DNA of 64,000 bases from Ilex aquifolium. Lineage: Eukaryota > Streptophyta > Magnoliopsida > Aquifoliales > Aquifoliaceae. The DNA is taken from the NCBI GenBank assembly GCA_951799425.1, contig OX637393.1, positions 18,991,744 to 19,055,743 on the forward strand, given 5' to 3'. The notes beneath the pieces were generated by a model. It had not been told where the DNA came from. It did no database searches and worked only from the letters and a program-made list of their open reading frames with translations. A program made the translations under genes and the position numbers. How positions within the stretch are numbered: the stretch's first letter is position 1; the number at the start of each line of letters is the position of its first letter. Of the stretch, positions 19,179-52,083 are shown one piece after another.

Positions 19179-19181
19179 TTT

Positions 19182-22300: not shown

Positions 22301-22459
22301 ACCCTAACCATGGAACAAGAAGAAAAACTTTTGGGGGTATTGAGAAAGAATAAGGGAGCGATCGGGTGGACTATTGCAGATATCAAGGGAATCAGTCCTA
22401 TAATTTGCACCCATCGCATCTATCTTGAGGAAGATGCTAAAACCTCCCGACAACCTTAA
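19337..22459 (+). pseudogene. Athila gag-protease part of the D polyprotein
   Basis: Opens at ATG (MWGRDNYHRLVRQ) 140 bp after the primer site; the same start is used in D'. Order: Gly/Pro/Asn-rich N-terminus; gag core around residues 150-330 (PKFHGVEKENPYSHLKSYEE, then LSWDHIVSFFLKKFFP); a zinc knuckle near residue 395 (CSICGGVEHPTSEC, CX2CX4HX4C); a Gln/Ser-rich linker; an aspartic protease near residue 766 with LLDLGASVNLLP, the DLGA form usual in Athila; then the start of RT. The frame ends at a TAA (22457-22459) where D' has CAA, so this is a nonsense mutation, not a natural gag end. Translation would otherwise continue into RT. Confidence 0.93.
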
Positions 22460-23440: not shown

Positions 23441-24228
23441 AGGAAGGACAATCGACCGCATGTTATACACTACGCTAGCAAAACACTTAATGAGGCTCAA
23501 ATGAATTACACTACCACTGAAAAAGAATTGCTAGCTGTAGTGTTTGCTCTTGATAAATTCCGTTCATATATCATTGGCTCACCTATTGTTATCTTCACTG
23601 ACCATTCTGCCTTAAAGTACTTGTTATCTAAGCAGGATGCGAAGCCAAGACTCATTAGGTGGATCCTCCTCCTACAAGAGTTTGATTTGACAATTAAAGA
23701 CAAAAAAGGAGTTGAGAATGTTGTGGCGGATCACTTATCCCGGCTGGTGGTGCAAGAGACTAATGAGCATATTCCTATTGCCGAATCTTTTCCTGATGAA
23801 CAGTTACTTTCAATCCATTCAGTTTGTCCTTGGTATGCTGACATTTGTAATTATCTTGCAACAGGACAAATACCGTCACAATGGAGCCTGGAGGACGAAA
23901 GACGATTCATGGCGGACGTGAAGTATTTTTACTTCGACAATCCGTATTTGTTCAAATATTGCCCAGATCAAGTCATGAGGAAATGCGTGCCCGAAGATGA
24001 ACAACAGAACGTCCTTGCATTCTGCCATTCCCAAGCTTGTGGCGGACATTTCTCGGCAAAGAAAACCTCGACCAAAATTTTGCAGTCAGGTTTCTATTGG
24101 CCCTCTCTCATTAAAGACTGTGTTTCATATTGTAAGGCATGCGACAGATGCCAACGATTAGGTAGTGTGACCCGCAGAAATATGATGCCCCTTTCCCCCA
24201 TCCTTATCATAGAAATATTTGAAACTGG
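23441..24228 (+). pseudogene. RNase H and integrase zinc domain of D pol
   Basis: Same frame continues: VIHYASKTLNEAQMNYTTTE, the KELLAVVFALDKFRSYIIG motif, FTDHSALKYLL and VVADHLSRL, all RNase H of Ty3/gypsy. Then the integrase HHCC domain: H-SQACGG-H near 24030 and C-KAC near 24137. The frame is lost at about 24222-24228, where one base is missing relative to D' (TTTGAAACTGGGG against TTCGATTGTTGGGG). Confidence 0.92.
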
Positions 24229-25134
24229 GGCATCGATTTCATGGGTCCATTCCCCATGTCTTTTGGTAATCTGTACATTCTTCTGGCGGTGGACTACGTG
24301 TCCAAGTGGGTAGAGGCAATCCCAACCAAGACTAACGACCACCGGGTCGTAGTCAAATTCCTTAAAGAGAACATTTTCTCGAGGTTTGGGATGCCTCGTG
24401 CAATGATTAGTGACGGTGGATCTCACTTCTGTAATAGGCCATTTGCATCATTAATGTTCAAATATGGCGTTTCACACAAGGTATCCACTGCTTACCACCC
24501 ACAAACCAATGGCCAAGCTGAACTAGCCAATAGGGAGATTAAGAATATCTTAGAAAAAATGGTCAACCCGAACAGGAAGGATTGGTCAGCCAGACTGACC
24601 GATGCCTTATGGGCATATCGTACTGCCTATAAGACTGTTTTGGGTATGTCTCCCTACCGGCTGGTTTATGGAAAAGCTTGCCATTTGCCGGTTGAAATGG
24701 AGCACAAGGCCTACTGGGCCATAAAGACCTTGAATTTTAACTTGAGAATGGCCGGGGAGCAGAGAAAATTGGAACTGAATGAATTGGAAGAGATCCGAAG
24801 AGATGCATATGAGAGTTCCAAAATTTCAAAAGAACGGGCTAAATTTTTTCATGATAATTCCATCACACGGAAATCATTTAAGCCCGGGCAAAAAGTACTC
24901 TTGTATAATTCTCGTCTCTCCGTATTCCAAGGAAAATTAAGATCCCGTTGGGATGGCCCCTATTTTGTCGAGGCGGCCTACCCCAACGGAGCGGTAGATA
25001 TCACAAACCCTAAAGATGGCCAAACATTCAAGGTTAATGGCCAAAGACTCAAGCCATTCTTTGAGGGTTTCGAGGAACAAGTGGTGGAGGAGGATTTAGT
25101 TGACCCGGTATACCCGGAATTGATGGAGGGTTAG
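24229..25134 (+). pseudogene. Integrase core and C-terminus of D pol
   Basis: Frame shifted by one base from the upstream segment. The DDE residues are visible: D in the first motif just before [12 protein letters not shown] (24233 region), D in [10 protein letters not shown] (near 24410) and E in [11 protein letters not shown] (near 24520). The C-terminal part ([20 protein letters not shown]) ends at TAG 25132-25134. There is no chromodomain, as expected for Athila. Confidence 0.92.
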
Positions 25135-25364
25135 CTAGGGTTTTTTTTTCCTTTTACTGTACAGTTACTTTTACTTATTTATGTTAATGTTATTTTATGT
25201 CACTCACTTGATGTGGTTGTATAGATTGAGTTCTCCCAGATCCAGATCTTGGTGCTTTTGTCGAAAGCGCAATTGCGAGGTGTTCTCTTACCCTACTTAT
25301 CTTTTTTATTGCCTTCCATTGCATATTATATCTTTTTGTTGCATTGAGGACAATGCATGGTTCT

Positions 25365-25380
25365 AGTTGGGGGGTGAGGT
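25365..25380 (+). other. Internal PPT-like motif after pol, D
   Basis: TTGAGGACAATGC is followed after about 10 bases by AGTTGGGGGGTGAGGT, nearly the same as the true PPT of D (AAGTTGGGGGGTG at 28991). Equivalent motifs follow pol in D' (39110-39126, minus) and E1 (32246-32263). Confidence 0.7.
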
Positions 25381-25690
25381 GCACCATTTGTATGATACAC
25401 CAAGGTTGTTTGACATTTTTTTTTTGATTTTTGCTTGCAATTGTGAAAAATAGGTGAAATTTTTGAAATTTTTTGATGAAAAAAATATCTAATTGTTGAT
25501 CTGTATTCCTTCATGTTGTGCTTGCGTGAGTTGATGACATGTTGATCTTTGTTTTGAACTTTGTGCACATGAGTATTCTATGGAAGTGGATCCTATGCAT
25601 GAGTATCATTTAGGTATTGATTTTTGAACTCAACTGTATGTAACTCTTGAATGTGTAATTTTGGCAATTTACGGATTGGATTCATGTTTT

Positions 25691-25779
25691 TAAGCTTGAC
25701 ATAAGTAGTGGAGACGAGTAAAGACCCTTGAGAGCTTTAGTGCCAAATCCTTTTTGGAGGGAATTTATAATTACTCAAA
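25691..25779 (+). other. Conserved Athila noncoding block, D copy
   Basis: AAGCTTGACATAAGTAGTGG, then agacgagtaaag, ccaaatcctttttggaggga and ttactcaaag. Shared with D', E1 and E2, although the four elements are otherwise diverged outside coding regions. Confidence 0.7.
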
Positions 25780-27214
25780 GAACATTTTTTTTTTGTCAAG
25801 TTGTTCAATAGTCTCATTATGTTCGCGTTGGTTAGTGCATTTGGCTAGTAGACTGATTTGTCTTGAACATATAATGCCCTCCCATGTGGACCTGGAAGTG
25901 ATCTTAGGCCATCTTTGAATATTTTGAGCCTTTAACCTTTTTCTTGTGCAAATATTATCCCTAGTGCCGTGATTGAGCTTAATTGAAATTCGTTTCTATG
26001 CCACACAATTGACCAAGCCTGTGAAAACAAGAAAGATATACCTTACCTTGGTTGTTCCTAAAAGCAGAAATGAGTGATTGCAAAAGTAAAGGATGTATGG
26101 TGTGGAAACCCAAACAAAAGGGATAAATGATGTTGAAACTCAAATAGTTCAATGGAAAAAGAATGAAAATCCAAGAAAAGGAAGAAAATGGGTGAAAGAA
26201 GAAAATAAAGAGAAAAAGAAAAGGAAATTGTTGAAAAGAAAAAAAAAAAAAATGGTGTAACGAAGAATGTGGTGACGGGGTGAGAATCAAAATCCCATGA
26301 AAAGGGAAGTGTTTTTCTAGAATAAAAGTCTCTCACTCGGAACAACCCTCTTTGTTATCCTATATCCTTCATTTCAATTTCCTAGATACCACCCCAATGC
26401 CCCATTTTAACCCTTAAAGTCCTAAGTGATCTAGAGAAGTTGGGAGGTGCATATTTCAAAGGAAATGATGAGTTTAGTCTTACTACCTAATGCCCTAATA
26501 TTCTATTCATGAGACTATGCCAAGTTCGCTTCATTTTCATTTGTTAACTTCATTTTTGGATTACATGTGGGCACACTTTGTTTTGAACATAAGACTCTAT
26601 CTCACATGTACACATGGAGTGCATACCAGGATAACTTGAGTGTATTTCATTGCTTAAGAGTGTCCCTTGGTGACTTGTTGCATTGAAGCTGAATTTGTCC
26701 AATTTTTCAAATGTGAATCCTGTTGTGTAACTGTTCAAATTACTTGTTTAATTCACACACACACAAGTTGAAAATCAATGTTTAGGTGCATACTTTAGAC
26801 TAGTATCTAAAACTATGGTTTTGCTCATGTTTGCCTAGTTCAATCAATTGAGAAATTTGTTAAGTAACTCAGGGCTTGCAACAATGAGGGAATACTGCTC
26901 AAGTTTTTGATATTTGTAAAGGATTAGAACTATGTGTGTTGTTTAAATCCATTTTTACATTTTGGGATACTCATTTTGATATTTAAAGAATAGAAATCCA
27001 TTCCTTGGATGTTGAATGCATCAAAGTTTTAAATCACTTTGCAATTTTGAAATTAACTTGGGCATGATGGATCAAATTGTGGAAATTAAGTGGAGTACAT
27101 CTTTTGGAAGGGAGTTGGAGTCACAAGTAATGTGAGGAAATGTCTAGGAAGGTCCTAAGCTGAATTGGAGTGGTGGTATGCTCAGTAGGAGGAGTCTGTC
27201 TGACAAAGCAGAAC

Positions 27215-27327
27215 AGTACCGGTACTGAGTACCGGTACCATATGGTACCGGTACTCAGTACCGGTACGCCAAACCTTCTGGAGTCGAAGTACCGGTACTG
27301 TATGGTACCGGTACTCAGTACCGGTAC
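27215..27327 (+). promoter_or_regulatory. Internal GTACCGGTAC cluster upstream of D ORF3
   Basis: Seven exact decamers within 113 bp, ending 207 bp before the ORF3 ATG. Flanks match the D LTR cluster too: gacaaagcagaaca before it, gccaaaccttctggagtcga between copies and gatttgtctga after it. It therefore looks like a copy of the U3 regulatory segment, and probably gives ORF3 its own promoter (inference). An AT-rich stretch (tttttaattttaa, about 27358) follows. Confidence 0.7.
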
Positions 27328-27533
27328 GATTTGTCTGACACGAAAATTTTTTAGGGCTTTTTAATTTTAACTCCTCGTTAAACCCTTCATTTCCCCACTT
27401 CTATTCCTGACCTATTCCTCTCTCCCTCACTCGAAAACAATCCGAACTCCCAAAACCCTCTCCATTTCCCTCTCAATCCATAAAACCCCCTTTGATTTCG
27501 GCTTCTTTGGACAACCCTCATTGGATAATCTCA

Positions 27534-28724
27534 ATGGTTCGCACCAAGAGAGCTGGACCAGGGCCAGAACCAGAGCCCAGTTCCCCTCCTGCCAAGGTCT
27601 CCTCCAGCCACAAGAGAGGAGGCGAAGGGTCAAGTGAAGACCTAGAGGAGCTGAGGAAGAGGGCTAAGAGGGATGCCCGTCGCCAATTGATCGATGGTAA
27701 GGGTGTGACCTGTGAATGATTTTTGGATAAAATTTCCCTTTCCCCCATTCATCCCGTTGTGAAAATCATTGAGGGACATGGGATGCATTTCTGGTTCAAG
27801 GAGGTTGAGGGTTACAACCTAGCATTGGTGAGGGAGTTCTACCGTTCATTGAAATTAGTTGAGGTTGCTGTTGGGGAAGTTCTGAGAGTGAACATTAGGG
27901 GAAAGATGTTTACAGTGACCCCTGATGTCATAGCCACCCTTCTTGGAGACTATCAGAGACCCCCATCTTCCCCACCTGTCTATCCCTACAACATGGGAAG
28001 AGCTAAGACCAAGGCGGAGTATGTCGATTTGATGTATGAGGATCCGACTGAATTCAAGGGAGTGGTTCATAGTGGTGGGTTGAAGCATGTTTATGGGCTT
28101 CTAAACAAATTGCTTCATTATAACCTACTCCCAAGGGCTGCAGAAAAGAAACCAAACCTGGAAAAGCTGGCCATTCTGGATGCTGTTGTGTTGGGCAAAA
28201 CAATCGATTTTGCCCTTGTCATTTGGGAAGTTATGAAAGACTTTGCCATCACAGAGAAGCCATTGACTAACCTGCCGTATGGGAGCTTGGTTACCCGACT
28301 GTGTAACCATTTTAAGGTTAAGGGCTACGCATCATAAAAACTCACTCCACCTGAGACTGGGGCCATAGGTAGGGCCAGTATCCAAAAGAGGAGGGCTATG
28401 GGTCGTGGGGAGCGAGCTCAGCTTGAGTCTGATGAGGACGTTGTACCAACTGCACCCACCATGCCATTCAAGCCTATTTCAGCACGCTCAGTCCCTAAGA
28501 GACTTGATGCACTAGAGACGACAGTGCATGAGATGGAGGCCTCGGTTCAGGGAATAATGGTGATGATGAAGGAGATGTACATGCACACATTCCCTGGGAG
28601 ACCCATCCCAGAAGTTCCTACTGCTCCTTCAACCTCCAGGGTGAATGAGGATGTGGAAGATGAAGAGGAGTCTGAGGAAGGGGAAGAATCAGAGGGTTAT
28701 GAGGAAGAGAGTGATGGAGAGTAA
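27534..28724 (+). pseudogene. Athila ORF3 of D, broken by two nonsense codons
   Basis: Starts at ATG (MVRTKRAGPGPEPEPSS), aligned with the start in D'. Layout: basic N-terminus (ELRKRAKRDARRQLIDGK); central domain (HGMHFWFKEVEGYNLALVRE, then LRVNIRGKMFTVTPDVIATL and GGLKHVYGLLNKLLHYNLLP) resembling proteins annotated as putative plant transposon protein (Transposase_32, family from memory); a heptad-rich stretch (PKRLDALETTVHEMEASVQG); and a C-terminus very rich in Glu/Asp. In-frame TGA at 27717 and TAA at 28335 stand where D' has sense codons. It sits where env would be in a retrovirus, but no signal peptide or membrane segment is seen. Confidence 0.85.
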
Positions 28725-28987
28725 GGAGTTCCTGTGCTAGTATAGGATTTTGAGTAGTTGGGGGGGGGGGAGATTAGACTATTTTGTTCTTTTTGATGAC
28801 CTACTCCATTTTGTACTCCAACTTCGTTCACATTAATATAAACCCACAATTGTTCCATTTTACTCACTTTCATGTTATTACTTGCATTTTGATTGCTTGA
28901 ATGAATGATCATTGATTTGGATTGAATATGTGCTATTTTCTTTGTGTTGTGCTGGGGAATGAATCTTTTGCTAAGGGACTAGCAAAA

Positions 28988-29003
28988 CCTAAGTTGGGGG
29001 GTG
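28988..29003 (+). other. Polypurine tract, D
   Basis: CTAAGTTGGGGGGTG directly precedes the 3' LTR. A second G-rich tract (gttgggggggggggagatt) lies just after ORF3 at about 28757-28773; its counterpart is after ORF3 in D' (35504-35530). Confidence 0.88.
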
Positions 29004-30594
29004 TGATTAGCACAAAACTTTGTATATTTTAAGGTGCTAATCAGCTCATTTCACTTGTTTTTGAAGATTAAATGATAGGAGTTATGATGATTGAAGTCTT
29101 AACGTCAAAAATTTGTGCTTGCAGTTGAAAGGAGCTAATTATGGTTTGTTAAGGCCCACACATACCACTTGGGATGAAAGGAGATGAAAAGAGAACTTGG
29201 GGACAGCTCAGGAGCAAAGGAATCAGAAGTTTCAGACAAGGAGGCAGAACAGTACCGGTACTCAGTACCGGTACGATTTGCCTGATGAGCCCAGAGTCTG
29301 CAGATCTGCTCAGCTACTTCGAGGGTCCCACCATAGATGCCCCCACACTCCTCTGACACGCCCACAACACTGTTCATCAGGCCCACACCTTACTCTGCAC
29401 TCTAGAGCTACAGCCTTAAAGGAAGAGAGAGAGAAGAGGAGGAGCTGGGTGTGTGCAGGCCAATTCTGCACTCCCTTGTCCAGGTCATCCAGGCTACCCC
29501 CTACTGATGGGGGTCACTTCAGGGAGCTAGAGGAGCAGACCAGGCACGGTTTTGGAGGGAAAGAGCTCTCCAATGATCAGGATTCTTCCATAGCAGAGAG
29601 AGGCAGATAGAGAGGGAAGCTCTGGGTGTAGAAGACGATGAATAGTAGTTTTAGAGAGAGAAAGTTGTGATTTCTGCATTTCGTTTACTGCATTGTTTTG
29701 TAATCAATGGTAGGAACCTTTATATCTTCAATGAATGTCATTAATGTCATTTTCCCTTATGTCATTGCTAGTTTAATGCTCCCATTTAAGTTCTACCATT
29801 AATGCTTTCAAAGTATTCATGTTTATAGATATAAAATAGATTTTCATTTCATTCACTTCTAGTCTATGATTTCTTGCACTTAGTTACTTCAAAACTCCAT
29901 ATCCATACAATGCTTTATATTTACATTGTCATTTCTATTTCAAGTATGAGTAGCTAAGCCCTTTTTGTTGGCAAGACCAAGGGGAATCCTCATTTGGGTA
30001 TATTGTTTCAACTCTTTCTACACCCTCCCTTTAGAGTCCCATGGTTCGGTTTGACCGGATTGAAGGTGGATGATTCGGTGAATCTTTGATAATCCGTAGG
30101 CCTAGTCACGGTTTATGCTTAGGCACTCACCAACATCATCCTCGGCTTTCCGTGAATCAACCGTTCATTCTTGCTCAATCGGAGGTGTGAGTTGAGTTGA
30201 GATACCCATTGGAGGGACCCCTTGGAATTGCCAACGCTTGTTCTCTCATTCTAATTTTACCAAAACACACTTCATCAAACAATTTCCAACAACAAGAATT
30301 TTACACTTTCTTTGCCCAAAATCACTTTCAAATTGGTTTACTTCCTTCCCCGTGGAAACGACCTTGGAATACCACTAAGTAAAAGACGACCCACGAAAGT
30401 CTCCTTGCGATTGGGGAGCATTTTTGTGCATTCACCTATCACATTCCCACTGACCTATTTCCTTTCCTATTGCCTTTTCTTTTCACACTATTCCAAAGGA
30501 GCGTGACCTCCCTTCCCGGTTGAATATACATCACACATACACCTTGGGGGATAGTATTTTAGGGGTTAGGAATATGACTGTTTTTGCTCAATCA
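29004..30594 (+). mobile_element. 3' LTR of D
   Basis: TGATTAGCACAAAACTTTG to CTCAATCA, 1591 bp. Nearly identical to the 5' LTR. The main differences are one missing palindrome unit near 29274 and a 5 bp indel near 30203. The TSD GTGAC follows. Confidence 0.94.
29252..29274. repeat. GTACCGGTAC cluster, D 3' LTR
   Basis: Two decamers only; the 5' LTR has three. It goes straight from the second decamer into gatttgcctgatgagc. Confidence 0.95.
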
Positions 30595-31521
30595 GTGACC
30601 GTTGACCGAGTATCATAGAGTGGGTTAGATGCATTTCTTACTCCGTGTGGGTTTGAAGGTTCCCTATCACTCATAGTGGGGTTGGTGCCTTGCGAGGACC
30701 AAACCACTATTCGCTCACGTGGTATCGAGGCTGAGGGTTAGTATACTATTCCTGGGTTGGATTCGTCACTGCCAATGTGTTGGTATACGCCCTTCCTAAA
30801 GTTGGATATCCTTGCGAGGATTGGGTGTGTGCGTGTGGGTCAGGATATTCTCGATGTGTTTAATCATGCGATGTCATACATCATACCTGAGATACATTGT
30901 GGGCTATTGGTTTATTGTGAAAATGGTTATCGTGGAAATAGTAACTTGTTGGAATAGTTATTTTTGGGAATTGGTTTTACTTTTTCATTTAATTATTGCT
31001 ATTGCGTAAGCTTGAGATCCATTAAAATATCCCTGTTTTCTTTCAAAATATATATATGATATTTGTAAAATGAGACCAACTATTTTATATGCTTTTGAAA
31101 CCTTGTTCGAGTTTGGGAGGATTTTCCTACAGAGCTTAGTGCTCACCCCCTACAAACAATATTCTTTTCAGATTTTGGTTTAGAGGAGGAGCTCAGAGTT
31201 GACGAGCAGGTAGCTTGGGAAGCTCAACTTGATGGGCATGTGGACCCGGAGTTAGATGTCTAGAACTGTTCTTTTTATGTCCTAGACTAGGAGGTTTATT
31301 TGAGATAATGTTCATGTTAATATTTTTCTTATTCCGCTGCAAGATAATAGTTAAATTTTGGGATGTAATTGCCGTAGTTGGGCATATTCTTTTGGATGAA
31401 GTTGTAAATATTATGGATGATGAAATAGAACTTCCTCTAATTATGAATTTTATTAGTTGCTCTCCTGATATGAATGATTTTAGATAGTAATGCTGTCCAA
31501 GGGGGATTTTGGGGCGTTACA
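30595..31521 (+). mobile_element. Right part of the B/C chimeric 3' LTR
   Basis: Starts with the D target duplication and ends GGGGCGTTACA. This half follows family C (compare 47764-48297 and 50768-51230 inverted): gtatcatagagtggg, ggttagtatactattcctgggttgg, GAGCTTAGTGCTC at 31132-31144, and the end gctgtccaagggggatttt. The B 5' LTR has gccgtccagggtggttttt there. The open frames at 30757-31009 are not genes. Confidence 0.8.
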
Positions 31522-32063
31522 AAAAAACAGTAAATCCAGATCGTAAGGATTGGTCTTTGAGATTAACTGATGCGCTTTGGGCTTACCGTACTGCATATAA
31601 AACTATTTTAGGAATGTCTCCTTATCGGTTAGTTTTTGATAAAACATGTCACTTACCCGTAGAATTAGAACATCGAGCATATTGGACAATCAAAATGATG
31701 AATTTTGATATGGATAAAGTTGGAGTAGCTCGTAAACTTCAAATTAATGAATTAGAAGAATTCAGAAATGAAGCTTAAGAAAATGCGAAGATTGCTAAAT
31801 CTAGAACAAAAATTTTTCATAATAAAAATATCGTGCGAAAGTCTTTTGAACCTTCTCAGAAAGTTCTGTTATATAATGCAAAACTCCGTTTATTTCCTGG
31901 AAAGTTAAGATCTAGATGGACAGGTCCTTATATTTTCAAGCAAGTTTTTAATTATGGGGCAATTGAAATTGAAAACCCATTAATTGGAAATATTTTTAAA
32001 GTAAATGGTCAAATACTTAAACCCTATTATGATGGATTCACTCAAGATGCAACTTCTATATAA
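31522..32063 (+). pseudogene. Integrase C-terminal part of E1
   Basis: Begins inside integrase ([20 protein letters not shown], then [16 protein letters not shown]) and runs to the end of pol (FKVNGQILKPYYDGFTQD, TAA at 32061). One in-frame TAA near 31776 splits it. It is clearly Athila: it aligns with 24563-25100 of D at protein level. Everything upstream (gag to the catalytic core) is missing because the sequence to the left is the end of the B/C LTR. The apparent ATG/GTG in the LTR tail at 31509 is not a start. Confidence 0.88.
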
Positions 32064-32245
32064 CTGTTAGAGCCAGTCTATGTGTTCTAAAAAATTATAT
32101 TGTTGTTTGATTGTAAATAGTAGTACTAATTGTTTGTTGTTTGTTTCACACATTAGGTTTTAAATTATCAGTTGTATTACCTACCACACTTTGTTAAAAT
32201 TTCTATATTTTTATTATTTTAATCATTGTGGACAATGTTTAATTT

Positions 32246-32263
32246 AAGTTGGGGGGAAGGGAA
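32246..32263 (+). other. Internal PPT-like motif after pol, E1
   Basis: ATTGTGGACAATG at 32225 is followed by TTTAAGTTGGGGGGAAGGGAA, the same arrangement as after pol in D and D'. No LTR follows here. Confidence 0.65.
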
Positions 32264-32419
32264 TTTATCTAAAATTAAAATTTGTGAAATTTGTTTTGTA
32301 TTTTGTGTTTTTGTGTTTTTTTATAAATTTGTTTGTCTTTGTGACTGGTAGACGTTAAAGAACTAGATAGTGAGTAAATTTTGAGTCGTTTTTAAAATTT
32401 TCCGAAAAATAATTGTACA

Positions 32420-32824
32420 ATGGATGAGAAACTGTTTTGGTTAAGTTTAATTTTACTCCGCCATTTTCCAAAAGACATACATTCGTTGATCATGCAAAAA
32501 ACAAGATTTGTTAGAAATTTTGAAATTTTTGAAAATCAAGCAAAACCCTTGTGCGGAAAAAGTTCATTTGCTAAACGCCGACGAGCGAATCGTCTCGGTG
32601 GCTTTGTAAGGTGTGGTTGTTTAATGCATTTGAGACAATATAATCAGTGTGCGGAACCAATTTCAGGTCGAGCGTCAGATCGTCTTCAGTGGATTAGGTA
32701 TGGGCAGAGTAAGGAATATCCTGAGATGCCATCCTATTCTACTCCTATGTTGTCAAGATACGTGAGATGTGAAGTTAACCGTGTTACTGGTGTTGTTGAT
32801 CTAGAAGATTCTGATTATGAATAA
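32420..32824 (+). CDS. Unrecognised 134-codon ORF of E1 between pol and ORF3
   Basis: ATG to TAA in an AT-rich region where an open frame this long is somewhat unusual. The protein has a basic, Cys-containing middle (SSFAKRRRANRLGGFVRCGC) and an acidic end (GVVDLEDSDYE). I recognise no family. D and D' have no counterpart at this place. It could be a remnant of an element-specific gene or a chance frame. The rest of 32064-33057 shows only AT-rich noncoding sequence. Confidence 0.35.
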   Translation: MDEKLFWLSLILLRHFPKDIHSLIMQKTRFVRNFEIFENQAKPLCGKSSFAKRRRANRLGGFVRCGCLMHLRQYNQCAEPISGRASDRLQWIRYGQSKEYPEMPSYSTPMLSRYVRCEVNRVTGVVDLEDSDYE

Positions 32825-33057
32825 GTGTGATCAAATGATGTATAATTTTGGAATAGTACATAAATGTAAATAACTTTAGATTAATTAAGGAAATGAGTAA
32901 ATAATAAATAACAAATAAATAATTAATAGCTCCAATTTTTTTTAAAAAAAAAGAGTGGTTAGCAAATTATGAAGAATGTTTAAAATCGTAATTAATTTTG
33001 TAACTGCAGGAAATAGAAAGTCAGCAGTGCAGTGCAATACAAAAACCAGTGTACCAG

Positions 33058-33108
33058 CACCGTCTGGACGGTGGTACTGGCGTCTGGACGGTAGTGCAAA
33101 TATAAAAA
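33058..33108 (+). promoter_or_regulatory. Internal palindrome pair plus TATA upstream of E1 ORF3
   Basis: CACCGTCTGGACGGTGG and GCGTCTGGACGGTAG, the same paired arrangement as in the E1 LTR (9511 and 59988), with spacer tact instead of tggt. TATAAAAA begins at 33101. The ORF3 ATG is at 33321. This parallels the internal GTACCGGTAC clusters of D and D' but uses the E-type palindrome. Confidence 0.65.
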
Positions 33109-33320
33109 CCGATTTGCATGAAAAACCGATCAGTTTTCATTTGCTAGCAAGCCAGAATTCGAAACCAGTGGGTTTTCTCCAAGGATTTCTTCTCAAATCT
33201 ACTACATTTGACCGTTTTCTTCAAATTTTCTCCGATCATTCACTTATTCATATCATTTTCAAGGTTTCTACCGATTGAAATCAGTCGAAAGCAAGTAGGA
33301 AGAAAGAAATTAGTAAAAAC

Positions 33321-33405
33321 ATGGATTCAAGGCGTCGAACGAGAGGATCTTCGAGTCGTGCATGAAGGGATCAACCTCTGCAACTTGAAGCACCTCCACA
33401 CCTAC
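33321..33405 (+). pseudogene. E1 ORF3, first piece (interrupted by D')
   Basis: ATG followed by a basic start (MDSRRRTRGSSSRA) and a TGA at 33363. The frame that continues into the next piece (KHLHTY, then PGNIYNEV across the D' insertion) is offset, so a frameshift accompanies the stop. D' inserted at 33405/47103 with the CCTAC duplication. Confidence 0.65.
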
Positions 33406-35261
33406 TGATTGTCACAAAAACGATATCTTTCCTAACCCCTAATTACTATCCCTCAATGTATGCAATGTATGGACGGGGGAGAAGAATTTCTTCCCCTAGG
33501 GATAGTGTCAAAAGGAAGGGCAATGAGGAAAGGGAAATGGGAAGATGTAAGTATAGGATATGTGTGCACAAAAATGCTCCCCAATCGCAAGGAGACTTTC
33601 GTGTGTCGTGAGTTACTTGGAAGAGTATTCCAAGGTCGTATCCACAGGGAAGGTAGTGAATCAAGGTTGAAATGATTTGGTAAAACAAGAAAATGTAAAA
33701 TCTTTAGTCTTGAAAGTTGATTGGTGAATTTTATGCTAATGAAAATGTAATGATAATATAAATGTTGGCAATTCCAAAAGATCACTCCAATGGGTATACC
33801 ACCTCAACTCAAATCACTCCTCCTATTGAGCATGAATGAACGCTTGAATCACGGAAAGCCGAGGATGGCATCGATGAGTATCTAAGCATGAATCGTGACT
33901 AAGCCTACGGTTTATCAAAGACTCATCGACACATCCATCTTCTATCCGGTCAAAACGAACCATTTGACTCTAAAGGGAAAGAGGAGAAATAGTTGAAATG
34001 GTATCCCCAAGGGAGATCCCTCTTGGTCTTGCCAACTAGAGGATTTAGCTACTCATACTTGGAATGGAAATAACTATGTAATGGAAGAGCATTCAAATCT
34101 ATGAACTTCTAAGGTGGCTAAATATCAGAATTTATGAGCTAAAAGAACATGTATTTAAACCCATTGCATAGTTATGAAAGATGAAATACTTGGAGCATTA
34201 ATGGTGAAGCATTAAATGAACATTGAACTAACAAAACATGAAGGAAAAACAACATTCATGGCATTCAATGAAATCCTAAGAGTCTTACTCAAGATTACAA
34301 GACAATGCAGTAGAAGAATATGCAAAAATCACAACTTTCTCTCTCTAGAAACTACTGTTCATCTCCTTCTCCGCCCAGACTTTCTCTCTCTAAAAACCTA
34401 TTACAAAAAAATATGCTCTCTAATAATCTCCCTGGCTTCCTGGTCATCCCCATCCTTGGAGAACATTTCTTTCTCCAAAACGTGCCTGGGCATCCCCTGA
34501 AGCTTCAGCAGCAGAGCCTAGTCTGCAGGCTTGGACCAGGAAGATGCAGCAACTCCCTGCACCCCAACTTGCCTTCTTGGTGTAATTTCCTTTGCTATGG
34601 AGAAAAGCCCCTTTTTCCCTTCACTCCCCATTCTGGAGAAGAGGGAGTCTCCCATCTGTTTTTGTCTCAGAGGAGTGCAGGAGCCAGGGACAGACAGGAA
34701 GTGGCAGAGCATGTCTGCCTACCCAGCTCATCCCATCCTCTCTCTCTTCATTCAATGCTTTAAATCCACAAGTCTAGAAGGGAGTGTGAGTCCTGATGAA
34801 TAGAAAGGTGGGCGTATCAGAGAGAAGCATGGAGGGGTCCACAAGACAGCTGAGCAGATCTGCAGAGTTTGGGCACTTCAGGGAATCAGTACCGGTACTG
34901 GGTACCGGTACCATTTGGTACCGGTACCGAGTACCGGTACTGCGATTCCAGTAGGTTTTGGGTACCGGTACTGGGTACCGGTACCATTTGGTACCGGTAC
35001 CGAGTACCGGTACTGTTCTGCATCCTTTTCTGAATTTCTTGATTTCTTGCTCCCGATCTATCCTCGAACTATCATTCCCACTCCTTTCATCCCAAGTGGT
35101 ATGGGAGGGTCTTTAAAGGCCATATTTAGCTTCATTCAACTACAAGAACAACAACTTGATGTTAAGACTTCAAGTGGCATAACGTACATAATTTAAAGCT
35201 CTAAAGTAAGTGAAATGAGTTGATTAGCATCTTAAAGATATGCAAAATTGTGTGCTAATCA
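33406..35261 (-). mobile_element. 3' LTR of D'
   Basis: On the minus strand starts TGATTAGCACACAATTTTGC at 35261 and ends CGTTTTTGTGACAATCA at 33406. It contains the palindrome cluster and a GA-rich leader candidate (agagagaaag on the complement, near 34340-34400). The open frames in it occur identically in the other LTR and are not genes. Confidence 0.95.
34889..35013. repeat. GTACCGGTAC cluster, D' 3' LTR
   Basis: Eight exact decamers in two near-identical blocks of four, separated by a gcgattccagtaggttttg spacer. Some overlap GGTACC to give longer palindromic runs. Confidence 0.96.
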
Positions 35262-35277
35262 CACCCCCCAACTTAAG
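35262..35277 (-). other. Polypurine tract, D'
   Basis: Minus strand CTTAAGTTGGGGGGTG abuts the LTR start. Confidence 0.88.
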
Positions 35278-35580
35278 GTTTGCTAGTCCCTTAGCAAACT
35301 GTTCATTTCCCAGCACAACCAAAACAACCAATAGTCACACAATCAATCAATTTAAACAACCATCTCATCAAAAGAAAAGTAAAAATCAAAATGCAATTAT
35401 CAACATAAACCATGAGCAAAAGGAAAAACTGTGGTTTCATAAATTGTGATAACAGTTGGAGTACAAAACGGAGTAGGACATTGAGATGAACAATCAAAAG
35501 ACAAACCTAATCTCCCCTCCCCAACTTCACCTAATCCTTAAACAAAAAGAAACAAAACACAAAAAAATTCCAAATAACAA

Positions 35581-36777
35581 CTACTCTCCATCACTCTCAT
35601 CATCCCCCTCAGACTCATCCCCCCCCTCATCTTCTTCATCCTCTTCAGCCTCAGAATCTTCCTCCTCCACATCCATTCTGGAGGTTGAAGGAGCAGGCGG
35701 AACTTCTGGGACGGCTTTCCCAGGAAATGTGTGCACATACATCTCCTTTAACATTGTTGCCATTTCCTGCACTGAGGTCTTGATTTCCTGCGTTGTCTTT
35801 TCCAGAGCACTAAGTCTCTGATGGGTTGAGCGTTTCACAACAGGCTTGAATGGCATAGTTGGCACAGCAGGTGCAACATCCTCTTCAGAGTCAGACTGAG
35901 CCCGATCCCCACGGCTCATGGCCTTCCTTTTCTGACTGCTGGCCCTGCCGATAGCTCCAAACTCCGGAGGGGTCAATTTCTCTAGTCCATAGCCCTTGAC
36001 CTTAGCATGGTCACAAAGTCGGGTGACCAAGCTTCCGTATGGTAGATTGGCCATCGGCTTCTCAGTGGTGGCAAAGTCCTTCATCACATCCCAAATGATA
36101 AGGGCAAAATCCATTGGTATGCCCGACACAAATGTATCTAGAAGGTTCAACTTCTCCACATTCGGTTTCTTCTCAGCAAACTTTGGGTAAAGATTATAGT
36201 GAAGGAGTTTGTTAAGAATCCCATATACATGCTTCAACCCCCCACTCTGAAAGGTTCCCCTGAACGTAGCAGGATCCTCATACATCAGCTCGACAAGCTC
36301 CTCTTTAGTCTTTTGCTTACCCATTCTGCGAGGATAAACAGGTGGTGTGGCTGGGGGTCTCTGGTAATCCCCAAGGCATGTGGCTATGACAGCAGGAGTC
36401 ACCACAATAATCTTACCCCTAACATTTGCCCTCAGCACTCCCTCATCATCATTCTCAATGAAATTCAATGACCGGTAAAACTCCCTCACCAAGGCCAAAT
36501 TATATCCCACAACCTCCCTAAACCAAAATTGCATCCCATGCCCCTCAACGATTCTCACAGCAGGATGAGTGGGGGAAAGGGAAGGCCTATCCAAAGAACG
36601 TTCACAAGTCACATTCTTACCGTCAATCAATTGGCGGCGAGCATCCCTCTTGGCCTTCTTTCTCTGCTTCTCAAGGTCCACACTCGATCCCTCTCCACTT
36701 CGTTTGCGGCTGGCAGAACCCATGGCAGGGGGAGAACTGGGCTCTGGTCCTGACCCGACCATCTTGGTGCGAGGCAT
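35581..36777 (-). CDS. Athila ORF3 of D', intact
   Basis: 398 codons from ATG at 36777 (MPRTKMVGSGPEPSSPP), chosen because D ORF3 begins at the same place (MVRTK); the frame is open a further 42 codons upstream. Layout: basic N-terminus around residues 20-55 (EKQRKKAKRDARRQLIDGKN), which could be a nuclear localisation signal; conserved central domain about residues 60-250 (MQFWFREVVGYNLALVREFY, then LRANVRGKIIVVTPAVIATC and GGLKHVYGILNKLLHYNLYP); Ser/Asp-containing linker; heptad-rich segment about 315-345 (LSALEKTTQEIKTSVQEMAT); tail of mostly Glu/Asp (EEEDSEAEEDEEDEGGDE). No signal peptide, transmembrane or envelope features. Biochemical role unknown. It stayed open while gag-pol of the same copy broke. 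Confidence 0.82.
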   Translation of the reverse strand: MPRTKMVGSGPEPSSPPAMGSASRKRSGEGSSVDLEKQRKKAKRDARRQLIDGKNVTCERSLDRPSLSPTHPAVRIVEGHGMQFWFREVVGYNLALVREFYRSLNFIENDDEGVLRANVRGKIIVVTPAVIATCLGDYQRPPATPPVYPRRMGKQKTKEELVELMYEDPATFRGTFQSGGLKHVYGILNKLLHYNLYPKFAEKKPNVEKLNLLDTFVSGIPMDFALIIWDVMKDFATTEKPMANLPYGSLVTRLCDHAKVKGYGLEKLTPPEFGAIGRASSQKRKAMSRGDRAQSDSEEDVAPAVPTMPFKPVVKRSTHQRLSALEKTTQEIKTSVQEMATMLKEMYVHTFPGKAVPEVPPAPSTSRMDVEEEDSEAEEDEEDEGGDESEGDDESDGE

Positions 36778-37125
36778 TGTGTAATGAATGGAGATAATAG
36801 GAGAGATTTGAGATTCGGCTATAAGGGTAGGGTAGAATGGAGGAGGCCTGTGAAAAAAATAATCTAGCTTAAAGGGAAATTTATAGAGTGAGAGGGGAAG
36901 CAAAAAGGATTATGGACCCTTGGAGTTCCGTCGGGTAAGGGGGGAAAAAGGAAGGGGAGGAGTAAATGGGTAGAGTGAAGAAGGAGAGAGAAAAGGCTCA
37001 TGACCCTTGGAGTGCCGTCGGGTAGGGGGGAAGTAGGAAGGGAAGGAGTAAATGAGGGAAATGAAAGGTTAAAACTAGAATTTGAAATTAAAAGCCCTAA
37101 TAAAAATTTTTCTGTCAGGCAAACG

Positions 37126-37294
37126 GTACCGGTACTCGGTACCGGTACCATTTGGTACCGGTACTGGGTACCGGTACTGCGTTTCCAGTAGGTTTTTGGT
37201 ACCGGTACTGGGTACCGGTACTGCGTTTCCAGTAGGTTTTTGGTACCGGTACTGGGTACCGGTACCAAATGGTACCGGTACCGAGTACCGGTAC
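37126..37294 (-). promoter_or_regulatory. Internal GTACCGGTAC cluster upstream of D' ORF3
   Basis: Ten exact decamers in 169 bp, 350-520 bp upstream of the ORF3 ATG (minus strand). Spacers (gcgtttccagtaggttttt; catttg; tgttctgc) match those of the D' LTR cluster. It thus duplicates the LTR cassette of its own element, as in D. Probable ORF3 promoter or regulator site (inference). Confidence 0.7.
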
Positions 37295-39354
37295 TGTTCT
37301 GCTTTGTCCACCAAACTACTCCTGCTGAACATTCCTTCACTCAAGATCAACTCAGGCCCTTCCTAGACACTTCCTCACATTACTTCTAACTCCAACTCCA
37401 TTTGACAAGATATATTCCAATTATAACCCACAACTTGAGACATCATGCTCACTTTATGATTGAAATTGCAAAGTGATTTAAACCTATGAGCATTCATCAT
37501 ACAAAAATTCGAATTCTGTTCTCAACTATCAAAATGAGTACCCAAAATAAACATCATAAGGTTCAGAATCAATGCATTCCAAAAAATATGTCAATATCAA
37601 TAAGTTGAGAAATATTCCCTCATTCTTGTAAGCATGAAGCTTTTTAACAAATTTCTCAATTGAACGAACTAGATGTACATGAGCAAAAGTATAGTCTTAG
37701 ATGCTAGGCTAAAGTATGCACTTACCATATTAATTTCCAACTTGTGTGCAAATGAAATAAACAAGTAATTTAGGAATTTACAAAGTAGAATTCACATTCG
37801 ACAGGCTAGACAAACTCAGTTTCAATGCAAAAACTCACCAAGAGACACTCTTAAGCAATAACCGCACTCACGTTATACAGGTATGCACTCCATGTGTACA
37901 TGTGATATAGAATCTTGTATTCAAAACAAAGTGCTCACATGTAATCCAAAAATGAAGTTCATATGTAGAAATAAAGCGACCTTGGCATAGTCTCATGAAT
38001 AGGATGTTAGTGCATTAAGTAGTAAGACACAACTTGTCGTTTTCTTTGAATTTATGCGCCTCCCATGCTTCTCTAGATCACCTAGGACTTTTAAAGGTTA
38101 TAATGGGGCCTTGGGGTGATATATAGGTAAAAGAAATGAAGGATTCAGGATAACAATGAAGGTTGTTCCGAGTGAGAGACTTTAATCTTAGAAAAATACT
38201 TCCCTTTTATGGGATTTTGATTTTCACACCATCACCACACCCTTTGTTTCTTTTCTTTCTTTTCCTTTACATTTCCCTTTTTCTTTTGATCATTCTTTCT
38301 TTATTCTCACCCCTTTTCTCCTTTTCTTGGCTTTTTCATTTTTTTCCATTGAACTCTTTGAGTTTCAACATCCATTATCCCTTGCTTGAATTTCCACACC
38401 ACACTTCCTTCTTTTGCAATCACTCATTTTTGTTTAGGAACAACCAAGGTAAGGTAGGTATTTCTTATTTTCTTTGGCTTGGTTCAATGTGTGGCATAGA
38501 AATGAATTCAATTAAGGCTCAATCATGGCACTAGGGATAACATTTCCTCAAGAAAAAGGGCAAAGGCTCAAAATATTCAACAATGGCCTAAGATCACTTC
38601 CAGGTCCACATGGGAAGAGCATTACATGATCAAGACAAATCAGTCTACTAACCAAATGCAACTAACCAAAACAAGCATAATGAGACTATTGAACAAACTT
38701 GATATCAAAAATTGTTCTTTGAGTAAACGTAAGTTCCCTCCAAAAAGGTTTGGCACTAAAACTCTCATGGGTCTTTACTCATCTCCACTACTTATGTCAA
38801 GCTTAAAACATGAATCCAACCCATGAATCACTAAAATTACAAATTCAGAAATCACATACAGATGAGTTCGAAAATCAATACATATGTGATACTTATGCAT
38901 AGGATCCATTTCTATAGTAAGCTCATGTACACAAGGTTCATAATAACGATCAACATGTTATCCAGTTCATACTCGCTTCATAAGGGAATACAGATCAACG
39001 TAAAGATATTTTTCATCAAAAATTTTCAAAATTTTTCACATATTTTGTACTAATGCGACAAAAACAGAATACTTCCCAGCAACCTTGGTGTAACATACAA
39101 ATGGTGCACCTCACCCCCCAACTAGAATCATGCTTTGTCCTCAATGCAACAAAAGGATATAGTAGGCAATGGAAGACAATAAAAGATAAATAGGGTAAGA
39201 GAACACCTCGCAATTGCACTTTTGACAAAAGCACCAAGATCTGGATTCAAGAGGAAAACAAAGCTATACACCAACAACAAGTAAGTGACATGAAATAAAA
39301 ACAGGACAATATTAAAATAAAAGAAAACTGTACATGCAAACAAAGGACCAATTG
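37295..39354 (-). other. Noncoding region of D' between pol and ORF3
   Basis: Counterpart of 25135-27214 in D. It holds the internal PPT-like motif (39110-39126, with GGACAAAGC rather than GGACAATGC upstream), the conserved block (38718-38811), a pyrimidine-rich run on the plus strand (38220-38360) and TTCATGAGACTATGCCAAGG (complement near 37980-38000). No supportable gene. Confidence 0.72.
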
Positions 39355-40485
39355 TTATTCCTCAACCAAGTCCGGATACACCGGGTCGGTTAACTCTTCC
39401 TCCACCACTTGGTTTTCAAAGCCCTCAAAGAATGGCTTAAGTCTTTGGCCATTGACCTTGAATGTTTGGCCATCTTTGAGGTTGGTGATCTCAACAGCTC
39501 CATTGGGGTAGGCCACCTTGACAAGTTAGGGGCCATCCCAACGGGATCTTAGCTTTCCAGGAAAAATGGAGAGGCGGGAATTATACAAGAGTACTTTTTG
39601 CCCGGGCTCGAATGATTTCCTCACTATGGAGTTATCATGAAAGATTTTCGCCCGTTCCTTTGAAATTTTGGAACTCTCGTATGCATCCCGCCGAATCTCT
39701 TCCAATTCATTCATTTCTAGCATCCTATGGTTCCCGGCCATTCTCATATTGAAATTTAGGGTCTTGATGGCCCAATAGGCCTTGTGTTCCATTTCTACCG
39801 GCAGATGGCAAGCCTTTCCATAGACAAGCCGATAGGGGGACATGCCCAAAACTGTCTTGTAGGCAGTACGATATGCCCACAGGGTATCAATCAATCTCTC
39901 AGACCAATCCTTCCTATTGGGGTTAACTGTTTTCTCAAGGATGGTCTTGATCTCCCTATTGGCTAGCTCGGCTTGGCCATTTGTTTGTGGGTGATAAGCG
40001 GTGGATACTTTATGTGTAACACCATATTTCAACACTAAAGATGCAACTGGCCTGTTACAGAAATGTGATCCACCGTCACTAATCAAAGCACGAGGCATCC
40101 CGAACCTCGAAAAAATGTTCTCTTTCAAGAACTTGACCACAACCCGGTGGTCATTAGTCTTTGTCGGGATAGCCTCCACCCATTTGGACACGTAGTCCAC
40201 TGCCAGCAGAATGTATAGATAGCCAAACGACATAGGGAAGGGACCCATGAAATCGATGCCCCAACAATCGAATATTTCTATCACAAGTATAGGGGAGAGA
40301 GGCATCATATTCCTTTGGGTCACACTCCCCAACCGTTGGCATCTATCACATTCTTTGCAAAATGAAATACAATCCTTAATTAAAGAAGGCCAGTAGAAAC
40401 CTGATTGGAGAATCTTTGAAGAAGTTTTCTTGGCGGAGAAATGGCCACCACAGGCTTGGGAGTGACAGAAGGCAAGGACGTTCCG
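39355..40485 (-). pseudogene. Integrase of D' pol
   Basis: Same frame as the upstream RT segment, after a TAG where D has CAG. Contains the zinc domain residues, [16 protein letters not shown] with the first [14 protein letters not shown] with the second D, and [11 protein letters not shown] with the catalytic E. A second nonsense codon (TAA after RSRWDGP, at 39526) truncates the C-terminal domain; the natural stop would be at 39355. All catalytic residues are present. Confidence 0.92.
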
Positions 40486-43400
40486 CTACTCATTTTCAGG
40501 CACACATCGCCTCATGATTTGGTCCGGACAATACTTGAACAGATACGGATTATCGAAGTAGAAGTATTTCACGTCGGCCATAAATCTCCTTTTATCCTCA
40601 GAGCTCCAGTGTGGTGGGATTTGTCCTGTTGCAAGATAATTGCAAATGTCAGCATACCAAGGACAATGAGAATGAATAGACAGTAATTGCTCATCAGGGA
40701 ACGAGTCTGGGATAGGGATGTGCTCATTTGTCTCTTGTGCCACCAGCCGGGATAAGTGATCCGCCACAACATTCTCAACTCCCTTCTTGTCTTTAATGGT
40801 CAAGTCAAATTCTTGTAGGAGGAGGATCCACCTAATGAGTCTTGGCTTCGCATCCTGCTTAGATAACAAGTACTTTAAGGCAGAATGGTCAGTGAAGATA
40901 ACAATAGGTGAACCAATGATATATGAACGGAATTTATCAAGAGCAAACACTACAGCTAGCAATTCTTTTTCAGTGGTAGTGTAATTCATTTGTGCCTCAT
41001 TAAGTGTCTTGCTAGCGTAGTGTATAACATGCAGTCGATTGTCCTTCCTCTGACCAAGCACTGCGCCGACCGCGTAGTCACTCGCGTCGCACATAAGCTC
41101 GAAGGGTAGATCCCAATTGGGTGGTTGCATGATAGGAGGCGTGACAAGCATGCTTTTTAGTTTCTTAAAAGATGCCTCACACTCATGCGACCACTCAAAG
41201 GGAACATCCTTAGACAGTAAATTGGTCAGGGGTCGGGCCAATGCACTAAAATTTTGAATGAACCGGCGATAGAAACCTGCATGGCCCAAAAATGACCGGA
41301 TTCCCTTGATGGTTGTCGGCGTGGGAAGGTTGGAGATGGCCTCCACCTTGGATCTGTCCACTTCAATGCCCCTTGCCGACACTATGTGACCCAACACGAT
41401 CCCTTCCGTCACCATAAAGTGACACTTCTCCCAATTTAGCACAAGATTCTTCTCCTCACATGTCTCCAACACCTTCTCCAAATTTTCCAAACACCCCTTA
41501 AAGGAGTCCCCGAAGACTGAGAAGTCATCCATAAACACCTCGACAATCTTCTCCACCATATCACTAAAAATCCCCATCATGCAACGTTGGAATGTTCCAG
41601 GGGCATTACATAGCCCGAAAGGCATGCGACGATATGCAAAGGTACCGTAGGGGCAAGTGAAGGTGGTTTTCTCCTGGTCTTCAAGGGCAATCTCTATCTG
41701 ATTGTAGCCAGAGTATCCATCTAAGAAGCAATAGAAAAGATGCCCCGCTACCCGTTCTAGCACTTGATCGAGGAATGGAATTGGAAAGTGGTCTTTCTTT
41801 GTGCACAAGTTGAGCTTCCGGTAATCAATACACACTCTCCACCCAGTGATTACTCTTGTTGGAATGAGCTCATTCTCCTCGTTTTCCACCACGGTCACAC
41901 CCGACTTCTTGGGGACTACTTGCGTGGGACTAACCCACTTACTGTCGGAAATTGGAAAGATAATGCCCACGTCAAGTAGCTTTAGAACTTCATCCCGTAC
42001 CACATCTTTCATGATTTGATTTAATCTCCTTTGTGGCTGGCGGGATGGTTTCCCATCTTCTTCAAGGTAGATCCGGTGTGTGCAAATGGTAGGGTTGATC
42101 CCCTTTATATCCGCAATTGTCCAACCAATTGCTCCCTTGTGTCTTCTCAAAACCTCCAAGAGTTCTTTTTCTTGCTCATTGTTCAATGTGGAACTAATGA
42201 TCACCGGAAATGTATCTCCCTCGCCAAGATAGGCGTACTTCAAGTGTGAGGGTAACGGCTTCAACTCCAAATTTGGCTTTTGTTCCTCCGACCGGAAAAT
42301 CTTCTTTTCTTGCTTAGGCAACTCCTCAAAGGTGGGAATCCATTTTGTTACCCCTTTCAACTCTTCCATGCTCACTTCCTCATCTAACTTTACAAGTTCA
42401 ACAAGGTCCTCCTCCATGCAGTCCAACATCCCTTCTAATTCCACTTGCTCCTCAATCAACGTGTCGATTCTATTGATCTCGTTCACCTCCACATCATCCC
42501 CGGGTTGTTTTGCTAAATTGAACACATTCAACTCCATGGTCATGTTCCCAAAAGCCAACTTCATTAGACCATTCCTGCAATTAATCACAGCATTAGCGGT
42601 AGCAAGAAAAGGTCTTCCAAGAATAACGGGGATTTGGGAATTAAGGTTAGCAACCGGGTGTGTATCTAATACAATAAAATCGACTGGAAAGTAAAAATTG
42701 TCAACTTGGACAAGCACATCTTCCACTACTCCCCTTGGTGTGCGTATGCTCCGGTCCGCCAGTTGAAGTGTAACTGAGGTGGGCTTCAACTCTTCAAGCT
42801 TGAGTTGTTGGTACACGGAGTAAGGAAGAAGATTGACGCTCGCCCCCAAGTCAAGCAATGCTTGCTCAACCCGGCAATTCCCAATGGTGATGGCAATTGT
42901 TGGACAACCGGGATCCTTGAATTTTGGAGGAGTGTTGGTCCTCAATATGGAGCTCACTTGTTCGGTGAGAAATGCCTTCTTTCGGACATTCAACTTCCTT
43001 TTCACCGTGCATAGGTCCTTCAATATCTTGGCACATGACGGAATTTGCTTGATGGCATCAAGGAGCGGGATGTTGATTTTCACCTGCTTAAACAAATCCA
43101 AAATGTCAGAATAATTAGCCACCTTGACAGGTGACTTCAACCGATGGGGAAAAGGGGCAGGTATAGAAGGAGAGCATAACCCATTATCAATCAAATGTTC
43201 TTTATCAACCCCATCTCTTTCACTCGACTCACCCTTGTCGACCACACTTTCTTTGGCCTCACTCTCAATTTCTTTCTCCTTTGGCAATGTGGCCTTTGGT
43301 GTTAACTTTGGCACCACCATCTTTTCAATTTGTTTACCACTCCTAAGTGTGGTGACGGCTTTGAGTTGCTCACAACTCTCCTGGGAGGTTTCGGCCAACT

Positions 43401-45238: not shown

Positions 45239-45241
45239 AAA

Positions 45242-52057: not shown

Positions 52058-52083
52058 AGAAAGTTTCGTCCTCGAAACTTACC

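Follow-up and report, generated by a model that had tools for sequence, protein, structure and literature searches.

Do the Athila-type retroelements at this locus of Ilex aquifolium transcribe their third open reading frame (ORF3) from a promoter of its own, controlled in the same way as the LTR, and could the ORF3 protein itself be the controlling factor? An earlier note had proposed the former and, by analogy with the VANC proteins of VANDAL transposons, suggested the latter. We addressed both in a window of 64,000 nt (the whole stretch of DNA analysed), which holds three elements with an ORF3, referred to hereafter as D, D' and E1.

Palindromic arrays in the LTR and before ORF3

The features on which the argument rests are as follows.

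17552..30594, + strand: element D, Athila-type, with gag/PR/RT/IN domains, a self-BLAST LTR pair and the target duplication GTGAC
17800..17853, + strand: array of three GTACCGGTAC in the 5' LTR of D, about 250 bp inside the LTR
27216..27327, + strand: array of seven GTACCGGTAC before ORF3 of D
27534..28725, + strand: ORF3 of D (Transposase_32, PF20167; ATG at 27534), earliest in-frame stop at codon 62
33060..33091, + strand: module before ORF3 of E1, two CCGTCTGGACGG-type sites (exact at 33060, one-mismatch partner at 33080)
33406..47097, - strand: element D', Athila-type, inserted in ORF3 of E1, target duplication CCTAC
34889..35013, - strand: array of eight GTACCGGTAC in the 3' LTR of D'; the 5' LTR copy (46725-46849) also has eight
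35581..36777, - strand: ORF3 of D', open, 398 aa, Transposase_32 at residues 79-260 (ATG at 36777)
36879..36885, - strand: TATAAAT in D', 108 bp before the ORF3 ATG
37126..37294, - strand: array of ten GTACCGGTAC before ORF3 of D'
47103..47763, + strand: middle part of E1 ORF3, Transposase_32-like (E 8.7e-9, short of the curated cut-off), flanked by the D' and T2 insertions
59990..60021, + strand: module in the 3' LTR of E1, about 270 bp inside the LTR (CCGTCTGGACGG exact at 59990, degenerate copy at 60010)

The coding order of D and D' (gag, protease, RT, RNase H, integrase, ORF3) is that of Ty3/gypsy elements. A Ty3/gypsy pol followed by a third ORF with Transposase_32, as in sunflower Athila, agrees with the Athila lineage, a name which rests on these features rather than on a tree and was otherwise taken from the earlier note. 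The LTRs of D (about 17552-19178 and 29005-30594) are 96.5% identical by self-BLAST, and those of D' (33406-35261 and 45242-47097) are 100% identical. The 3' LTR of D holds two GTACCGGTAC (29252-29274); array length differs by one unit between its own LTRs. Because the insertions splitting E1 are flanked by target-site duplications (CCTAC for D', TTATG for T2), its internal and LTR pieces can be assigned to one element. The ORF3 frame is intact in D' only, being interrupted by stops in D and E1.

As the earlier note had claimed, the word of the LTR array recurs upstream of ORF3 in all three elements, GTACCGGTAC in D and D' and CCGTCTGGACGG in E1. The arrays are offset from the LTR start by 249 (D), 244 (D') and 272 bp (E1), and the internal ones lie 207, 349 and 230 bp, respectively, before the ORF3 ATG. 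Co-variation of LTR and internal words thus holds in 3/3 elements, effectively two independent cases since D and D' are related. Two details need qualifying for E1: its sites are imperfect palindromes, and the supposed LTR pair of CCGTCTGGACGG consists of one exact site and a degenerate partner. The internal module, with its exact word at 33060, lies 230 bp from the ORF3 ATG (33321); beside it stands TATAAAAA (33101-33108).

Within the window, 70 exact GTACCGGTAC sites were counted against 0.01 expected: 21 in the D and D' LTRs, 17 in the two arrays before ORF3, 30 in chromovirus-type LTR intervals and 2 in a further element. The internal part of T2, the usable one without ORF3 (other chromovirus-type internal parts are incomplete), has no internal array.

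Conservation and limits of the array module

All 28 palindromes of D and D' (counting the internal arrays and a single LTR per element) are exact, while their flanks diverge by 23% (123/533 sites); a rough neutral model, with sites treated as independent, puts the chance of 28/28 at about 1e-15. The long spacer shows 3/42 differences within an element versus 13/42 at the same place between elements (Fisher p 0.011), and the identical spacers of the earlier description are nearly so for this spacer (2/21 differences in D', 1/21 in D). Words that stay exact while spacers diverge are not predicted by plain turnover, which bears on the alternative that the arrays are RNA hairpins, small-RNA targets or turnover-homogenised tandem repeats with no regulatory role. 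The one-unit difference between the two LTRs of D would fit such a reading, as would the description, in passages of PMC5311732, of maize Sirevirus LTR palindromes as small-RNA hotspots. Predicted RNA folding is strong in D (z -10.9 internal, -4.2 in the 5' LTR) and D' (-14.5 in the LTR, -7.7 for part of the internal array), but not in E1 (-0.28 in the LTR, -2.8 internal), and hence is not general. We regard this alternative as very unlikely.

Similarity between LTR and internal copies is confined to the array module: the surrounding U3 is not common to both, and the flanks of the E1 LTR and internal modules are unrelated. A leftover LTR as the source of the internal array was ruled out, since local alignments between linker and LTR stop at the module. 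Upstream of each internal array lies a PPT-like GTTGGGGGG, with no U3 likeness after it. The E1 internal module differs from that of its own LTR at 6/40 positions, no closer than other E-type comparisons, and the linker of D aligns better with the D' LTR (score 161) than with D's own shorter array (103); both results count against the internal promoter considered below. Apart from expected pairings, the linker-LTR matrix had two marginal scores above their own shuffle maxima: 40 vs 38 for E1 against X1, and 37 vs 33 for D' against the E-type LTR.

A candidate promoter upstream of ORF3

Taking together the arrays, the match between their LTR and internal copies, their conservation and their placement, all directly observed, we think it on balance probable that a promoter dedicated to ORF3 lies between pol and this frame, carrying a copy of an enhancer-like module of the LTR. 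The array of 10-12 bp dyads, about 250 bp inside the LTR and copied before ORF3, would be this module, and a dimeric protein, probably encoded by the host, may bind the dyads. Transcription of ORF3 would start downstream of the array, in D' and E1 at a TATA box. Selection on the word and an exchange of array units within the element may each contribute to keeping the internal copy LTR-like.

The support that this gives to the earlier proposal of LTR-type control is indirect, coming from the sequence: an exact module at both places, candidate TATA boxes and published precedents. TATAAAT (D') and TATAAAA (E1) are located between array and ORF3 ATG, such sites occurring at 0.297 per kb per strand, so that about 0.23 would be expected in 784 bp. 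Pyrimidine-rich tracts follow the arrays, and TATATAT lies 47 bp past the 3' LTR module of E1. Counting against an internal promoter, D has no TATA box before ORF3, with CATAAAA (27479) in the alignment column of the D' TATAAAT, and in the LTRs of D and D' none follows the array within 400 bp.

A consensus splice donor, AGGTAAGT, stands in the leader, nearly identical between the two elements, at 19240 in D and at 45180 (minus strand) in D'; it also counts against the promoter, these being 2 of only 4 such octamers in the window on both strands. It raises the possibility that the message for ORF3 is a spliced subgenomic RNA begun in the LTR, the internal array being intronic and serving something else. 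In passages of published work, Bagy2 is reported to be spliced and Athila is predicted to be, and D' has four acceptor-like sites upstream of ORF3, one of them at 70 bp; the same scan, however, found none in D and one in E1, and a spliced RNA leaves the repeat of the LTR module before ORF3 unexplained. We consider this route unlikely, and favour the internal promoter.

The ORF3 protein, shared words and known systems

Could ORF3 act as a VANC-like activator or anti-silencer by binding its cognate palindromes, both those of the LTR and those of the internal promoter? The D' protein is basic at its N-terminus (+8) and acidic at its C-terminus (-20), a nuclear signal is predicted in a related sunflower Athila ORF (passages of PMC11728184), the divergent ORF3 of E1 goes with a different word, and VANC targets are described as short, tandemly arrayed motifs that differ among related elements (passages of PMC5735166). 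Against this, independent pairs of ORF3 and word number only two, and Pfam searches (E up to 10) returned Transposase_32 and one chance-level match, with no DNA-binding or DUF1985 hit. NCBIfam gave chance-level matches for P0001 and P0002, the two relatives retrieved by protein searches, and none for D' ORF3; the search of solved structures gave 0. Scans of viral and genome contigs found no related copy, the one DNA match (L001) lying in the reading frame of an unrelated contig. An ENV-like transmembrane protein was rejected as a candidate (top 19-residue hydropathy 1.48 in D', without a clear segment, a borderline 1.93 in P0001 and 1.27 in P0002).

Further evidence comes from chromovirus-type LTRs in the same window.

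2345..2622, unstranded: GTACCGGTAC array in LTR X1, 11 exact and 4 one-mismatch sites
4357..4466, unstranded: GTACCGGTAC array, 6 exact sites, in solo LTR T (3840-6090)
50083..50243, unstranded: other word, ACGTTCGAACGT, in the solo LTR 48298-50762, homologous to T; 2 exact sites, 5 within 2 mismatches
61397..61736, unstranded: other word, CCTTCCGGAAGG, 8 exact sites, in LTR X3, homologous to X1/X2

Tblastn with the three ORF3 proteins found relatives solely in D, D' and E1, and yet 30 of the 70 GTACCGGTAC sites fill chromovirus-type LTRs. Because these LTRs, with no ORF3 found, carry the same palindromes, and homologous ones have different words at the equivalent position, VANC-like autoregulation is not supported, and we judge it quite improbable. 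VANDAL is moreover a DNA transposon (PMC5735166, PMC10398659); VANC has DUF1985, and anti-silencing of this kind calls for a protein that reduces DNA methylation and binds to the motif, whereas DNA binding by ORF3, with Transposase_32 only, is putative and the word also occurs in elements without ORF3.

The word is common to both lineages; sharing of the spacer is partly supported. Strong spacer homology, first suggested by 5/9 chromovirus-type spacers at no more than 1/1000 shuffles, was discarded, as the reference set contained the spacer of element F. With F removed and both strands considered, 3/9 fall below 1% (7, 0 and 11 of 2000 shuffles), 3/9 at 3-6%, and 3/9 (T1 and both of T2) give no signal. 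One word across lineages, together with word swapping, is the unusual part. That a single trans-acting system is at work, possibly an Athila factor such as ORF3, with chromovirus-type elements having borrowed the GTACCGGTAC array, so relying on a factor that is not their own product, and escaping to other factors by word swaps in homologous LTRs, strikes us as a long shot.

For Arabidopsis Athila6A, an 'ENV ORF promoter' has been reported (PMC4977677), likewise within an Athila element upstream of the third ORF; ours is predicted, and the passages concerned mention neither a palindromic array nor a link to the LTR. Among the matches listed in literature searches combining palindrome with Athila, Sirevirus, chromovirus or gypsy, titles and abstracts described no such Ty3/gypsy arrays, and titles listed for the motif itself were on other subjects.

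The closest likeness is to Sireviruses (Ty1/copia), in which, according to passages of PMC2829016, palindromic RM boxes, most with a CGG/CCG core and called Sirevirus-specific, lie in the LTRs and before ENV (9/9 elements with ENV, 0/4 without), and an internal ENV promoter was proposed. This layout, described in 2010, recurs here: a palindromic LTR word lies 200-400 bp past the LTR start in D, D' and E1, and copies precede the third ORF in 3/3 elements with ORF3, with 0 sites in the T2 internal part. The differences are that D and D' are Ty3/gypsy rather than Ty1/copia (by coding order, not by a tree), that ORF3 is a Transposase_32 and not an ENV-type protein, and that one word is common to different lineages within one window. 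Should the module prove to be a genuine switch, one regulator would govern the promoters of both genome and accessory gene, and the two could change together. A layout known from published Copia elements and seen here in Ty3/gypsy ones, with one word across lineages and several words per LTR family, suggests that plant LTR elements have a regulator or silencing target in common, one that the passages of related literature considered here do not name; the array word offers a defined 10 bp bait for seeking it.

Palindrome arrays in nested elements

The window is composed of nested plant LTR retrotransposons, including:

17552-30594, + strand, element D, Athila-type
33406-47097, - strand, element D', Athila-type, inserted in the ORF3 of E1, target duplication CCTAC
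47764-58569, element T2, chromovirus-type, the second insertion splitting E1 ORF3, target duplication TTATG

D and D' are related (~9 kb alignable, 82% identity), the D' LTR pair shows no difference across 1857 bp, and E1 is a third, more distant Athila-type element. Both D and D' show the Ty3/gypsy coding order, with gag, protease, RT, RNase H and then integrase. Some 2.4–2.7 kb further on comes an ORF3 that matches Transposase_32 (PF20167; E = 1.2e-24 in D', 5.3e-23 in D); the E1 ORF3 piece matches it under the curated cut-off (E = 8.7e-9). The label Athila, assigned without a tree, follows the earlier note and a sunflower Athila ORF sharing this domain (excerpts of PMC11728184), while chromovirus-type, likewise named without a tree, reflects SH3 domains of the Tf2-1-like kind together with chromodomain matches under the curated cut-off. 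An 80 bp tandem unit is repeated six times inside a solo LTR (48895-49519).

The palindrome GTACCGGTAC has 70 exact sites in the window (0.01 expected). A blind search for palindromes of at least 10 bp returned 179, against a mean of 66 in a first-order random model. Besides AT runs, the recurring cores were GTACCGGTAC (70), CTTCCGGAAG (11), GTACGCGTAC (4, spanning two adjoining GTACCGGTAC sites at three of the four places) and CGTTCGAACG (3), with minor cores in 2–4 copies each (e.g. GAAAATTTTC, 4; GCAGATCTGC, 3); in the model, any core containing G or C reached at most 3 recurrences. Element F (60266-61182) carries an array with two exact and two one-mismatch GTACCGGTAC sites.

As the earlier note had claimed, the LTR word (the repeated palindrome) recurs before ORF3 of the same element: GTACCGGTAC lies ~245–250 bp from the LTR start in D and D' and again 207 bp (D) and 349 bp (D') upstream of ORF3, and CCGTCTGGACGG-type sites lie ~270 bp from the start of the E1 3' LTR and 230 bp upstream of its ORF3 ATG. 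The proposed co-variation of LTR and internal words holds in all three elements, but amounts to two independent cases, because D and D' are related.

Copying and conservation of the arrays

What is copied between LTR and linker (the pol–ORF3 interval) is the shared array module alone. In E1, the sequences flanking the 40 bp module in LTR and linker are unrelated on either side, and the best local match of the D linker to the LTR is 34 bp. When linkers were compared with nine LTRs, clear matches of the D and D' linkers were restricted to LTRs with GTACCGGTAC, and the E1 linker scored 56, 46 and 44 against three E-type LTRs (shuffle maximum 38); two marginal exceptions paired the E1 linker with the chromovirus-type LTR X1 and the D' linker with an E-type LTR. 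D (25364), D' (39124, - strand) and E1 (32246) each have an internal polypurine-tract-like GTTGGGGGG past the end of pol and ahead of the pre-ORF3 array; an additional PPT is mentioned for Athila4 and Calypso linkers in excerpts of PMC2829016.

All 28 palindromes compared across D and D' (one LTR each, 3 and 8; internal, 7 and 10) are exact, while 123/533 sites differ in the stretches preceding the arrays, 40/189 between array and ORF3, and 112/320 in the LTR past the array. The neutral chance of this is ~1e-15, a rough estimate that takes sites as independent and ignores array-unit turnover. A 21-base spacer differs between LTR and internal copies at 1 (D) and 2 (D') positions, at 6 and 7 between D and D' at the same place, and at 5 and 8 in crossed pairs; the two arrays of an element, in the LTR and before ORF3, have thus evolved partly in concert. 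No such sign is seen in E1, whose internal and 3' LTR modules differ at 6/40 positions.

Among 13 one-mismatch GTACCGGTAC sites, none of them in D or D', 11 are C-to-T or G-to-A changes (four at the central CpG), which fits decay by deamination in methylated older copies. Predicted RNA folding is strong for the D and D' arrays, weak for the E1 internal array and absent for the E1 LTR, so hairpins are not a general feature.

Candidate readers of the word

The earlier note suggested autoregulation by ORF3. In that case elements without ORF3 should be without the word; they carry it, with 30 of the 70 exact sites inside chromovirus-type LTR intervals, and tblastn of D' ORF3 and two protein relatives, P0001 and P0002, finds relatives in D, D' and E1 only (E ≤1e-3). 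Moreover, homologous LTRs of the chromovirus-type families X and T bear different words at the same place (GTACCGGTAC in X1 and X2, CCTTCCGGAAGG in X3; GTACCGGTAC or ACGTTCGAACGT in T), with homologous sequence flanking the array on either side:

61397-61736 versus 2345-2622, word swap at the same position, family X LTRs
50083-50243 versus 4357-4466, word swap at the same position, family T LTRs

Because of these swaps and the word's presence in elements without ORF3, one or a set of host proteins would be the simpler reader; a bolder reading is that other elements may use an Athila factor. Spacer similarity between lineages is partial: of nine chromovirus-type spacers compared against shuffles, three fell below 1%, three at 3–6%, and three showed none.

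ORF3 expression and known systems

Possible signs of a promoter in the array–ORF3 interval are a TATAAAT 108 bp upstream of the ATG in D' and TATAAAAA 10 bp past the array in E1; D has CATAAAA aligned to the D' TATA box. The first 200–350 bp upstream of ORF3 are 67–72% pyrimidine in D and D' and 51% in E1. Against a promoter reading, no TATA box was found within 400 bp past the array in the D and D' LTRs. ORF3 could alternatively be expressed from a spliced RNA, as the D and D' leaders contain a consensus splice donor, AGGTAAGT, and immediately behind it a stem-loop without mismatches, CCCGTGAT-CTTC-ATCACGGG, in a stretch almost identical in the two:

19240-19265, + strand, donor and stem-loop of D
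from 45180 downwards, - strand, donor and stem-loop of D'

This layout resembles that of retroviral splice donors and packaging signals. Acceptor-like sites before ORF3 number four in D', none in D and one in E1. The two remaining AGGTAAGT octamers in the window (15974, +; 52084, -) occupy corresponding places at the pol end of two chromovirus-type elements.

The likeness to VANC proteins of VANDAL elements drawn in the earlier note extends to the motif arrangement but not to the ORF3 protein (excerpts of PMC5735166). In Sireviruses, palindromic boxes occupy the LTRs and recur before ENV, an internal ENV promoter has been suggested, and the repeated motif is termed specific to them (PMC2829016, in part); that layout is matched here in Ty3/gypsy elements. 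For the related Arabidopsis Athila6A, the consulted portion of PMC4977677 defines transcription starts and reports an 'ENV ORF promoter'; here, a palindrome array precedes ORF3. The present case unites the Sirevirus motif layout with a position before an ORF that, in a related element, reportedly has a promoter of its own.
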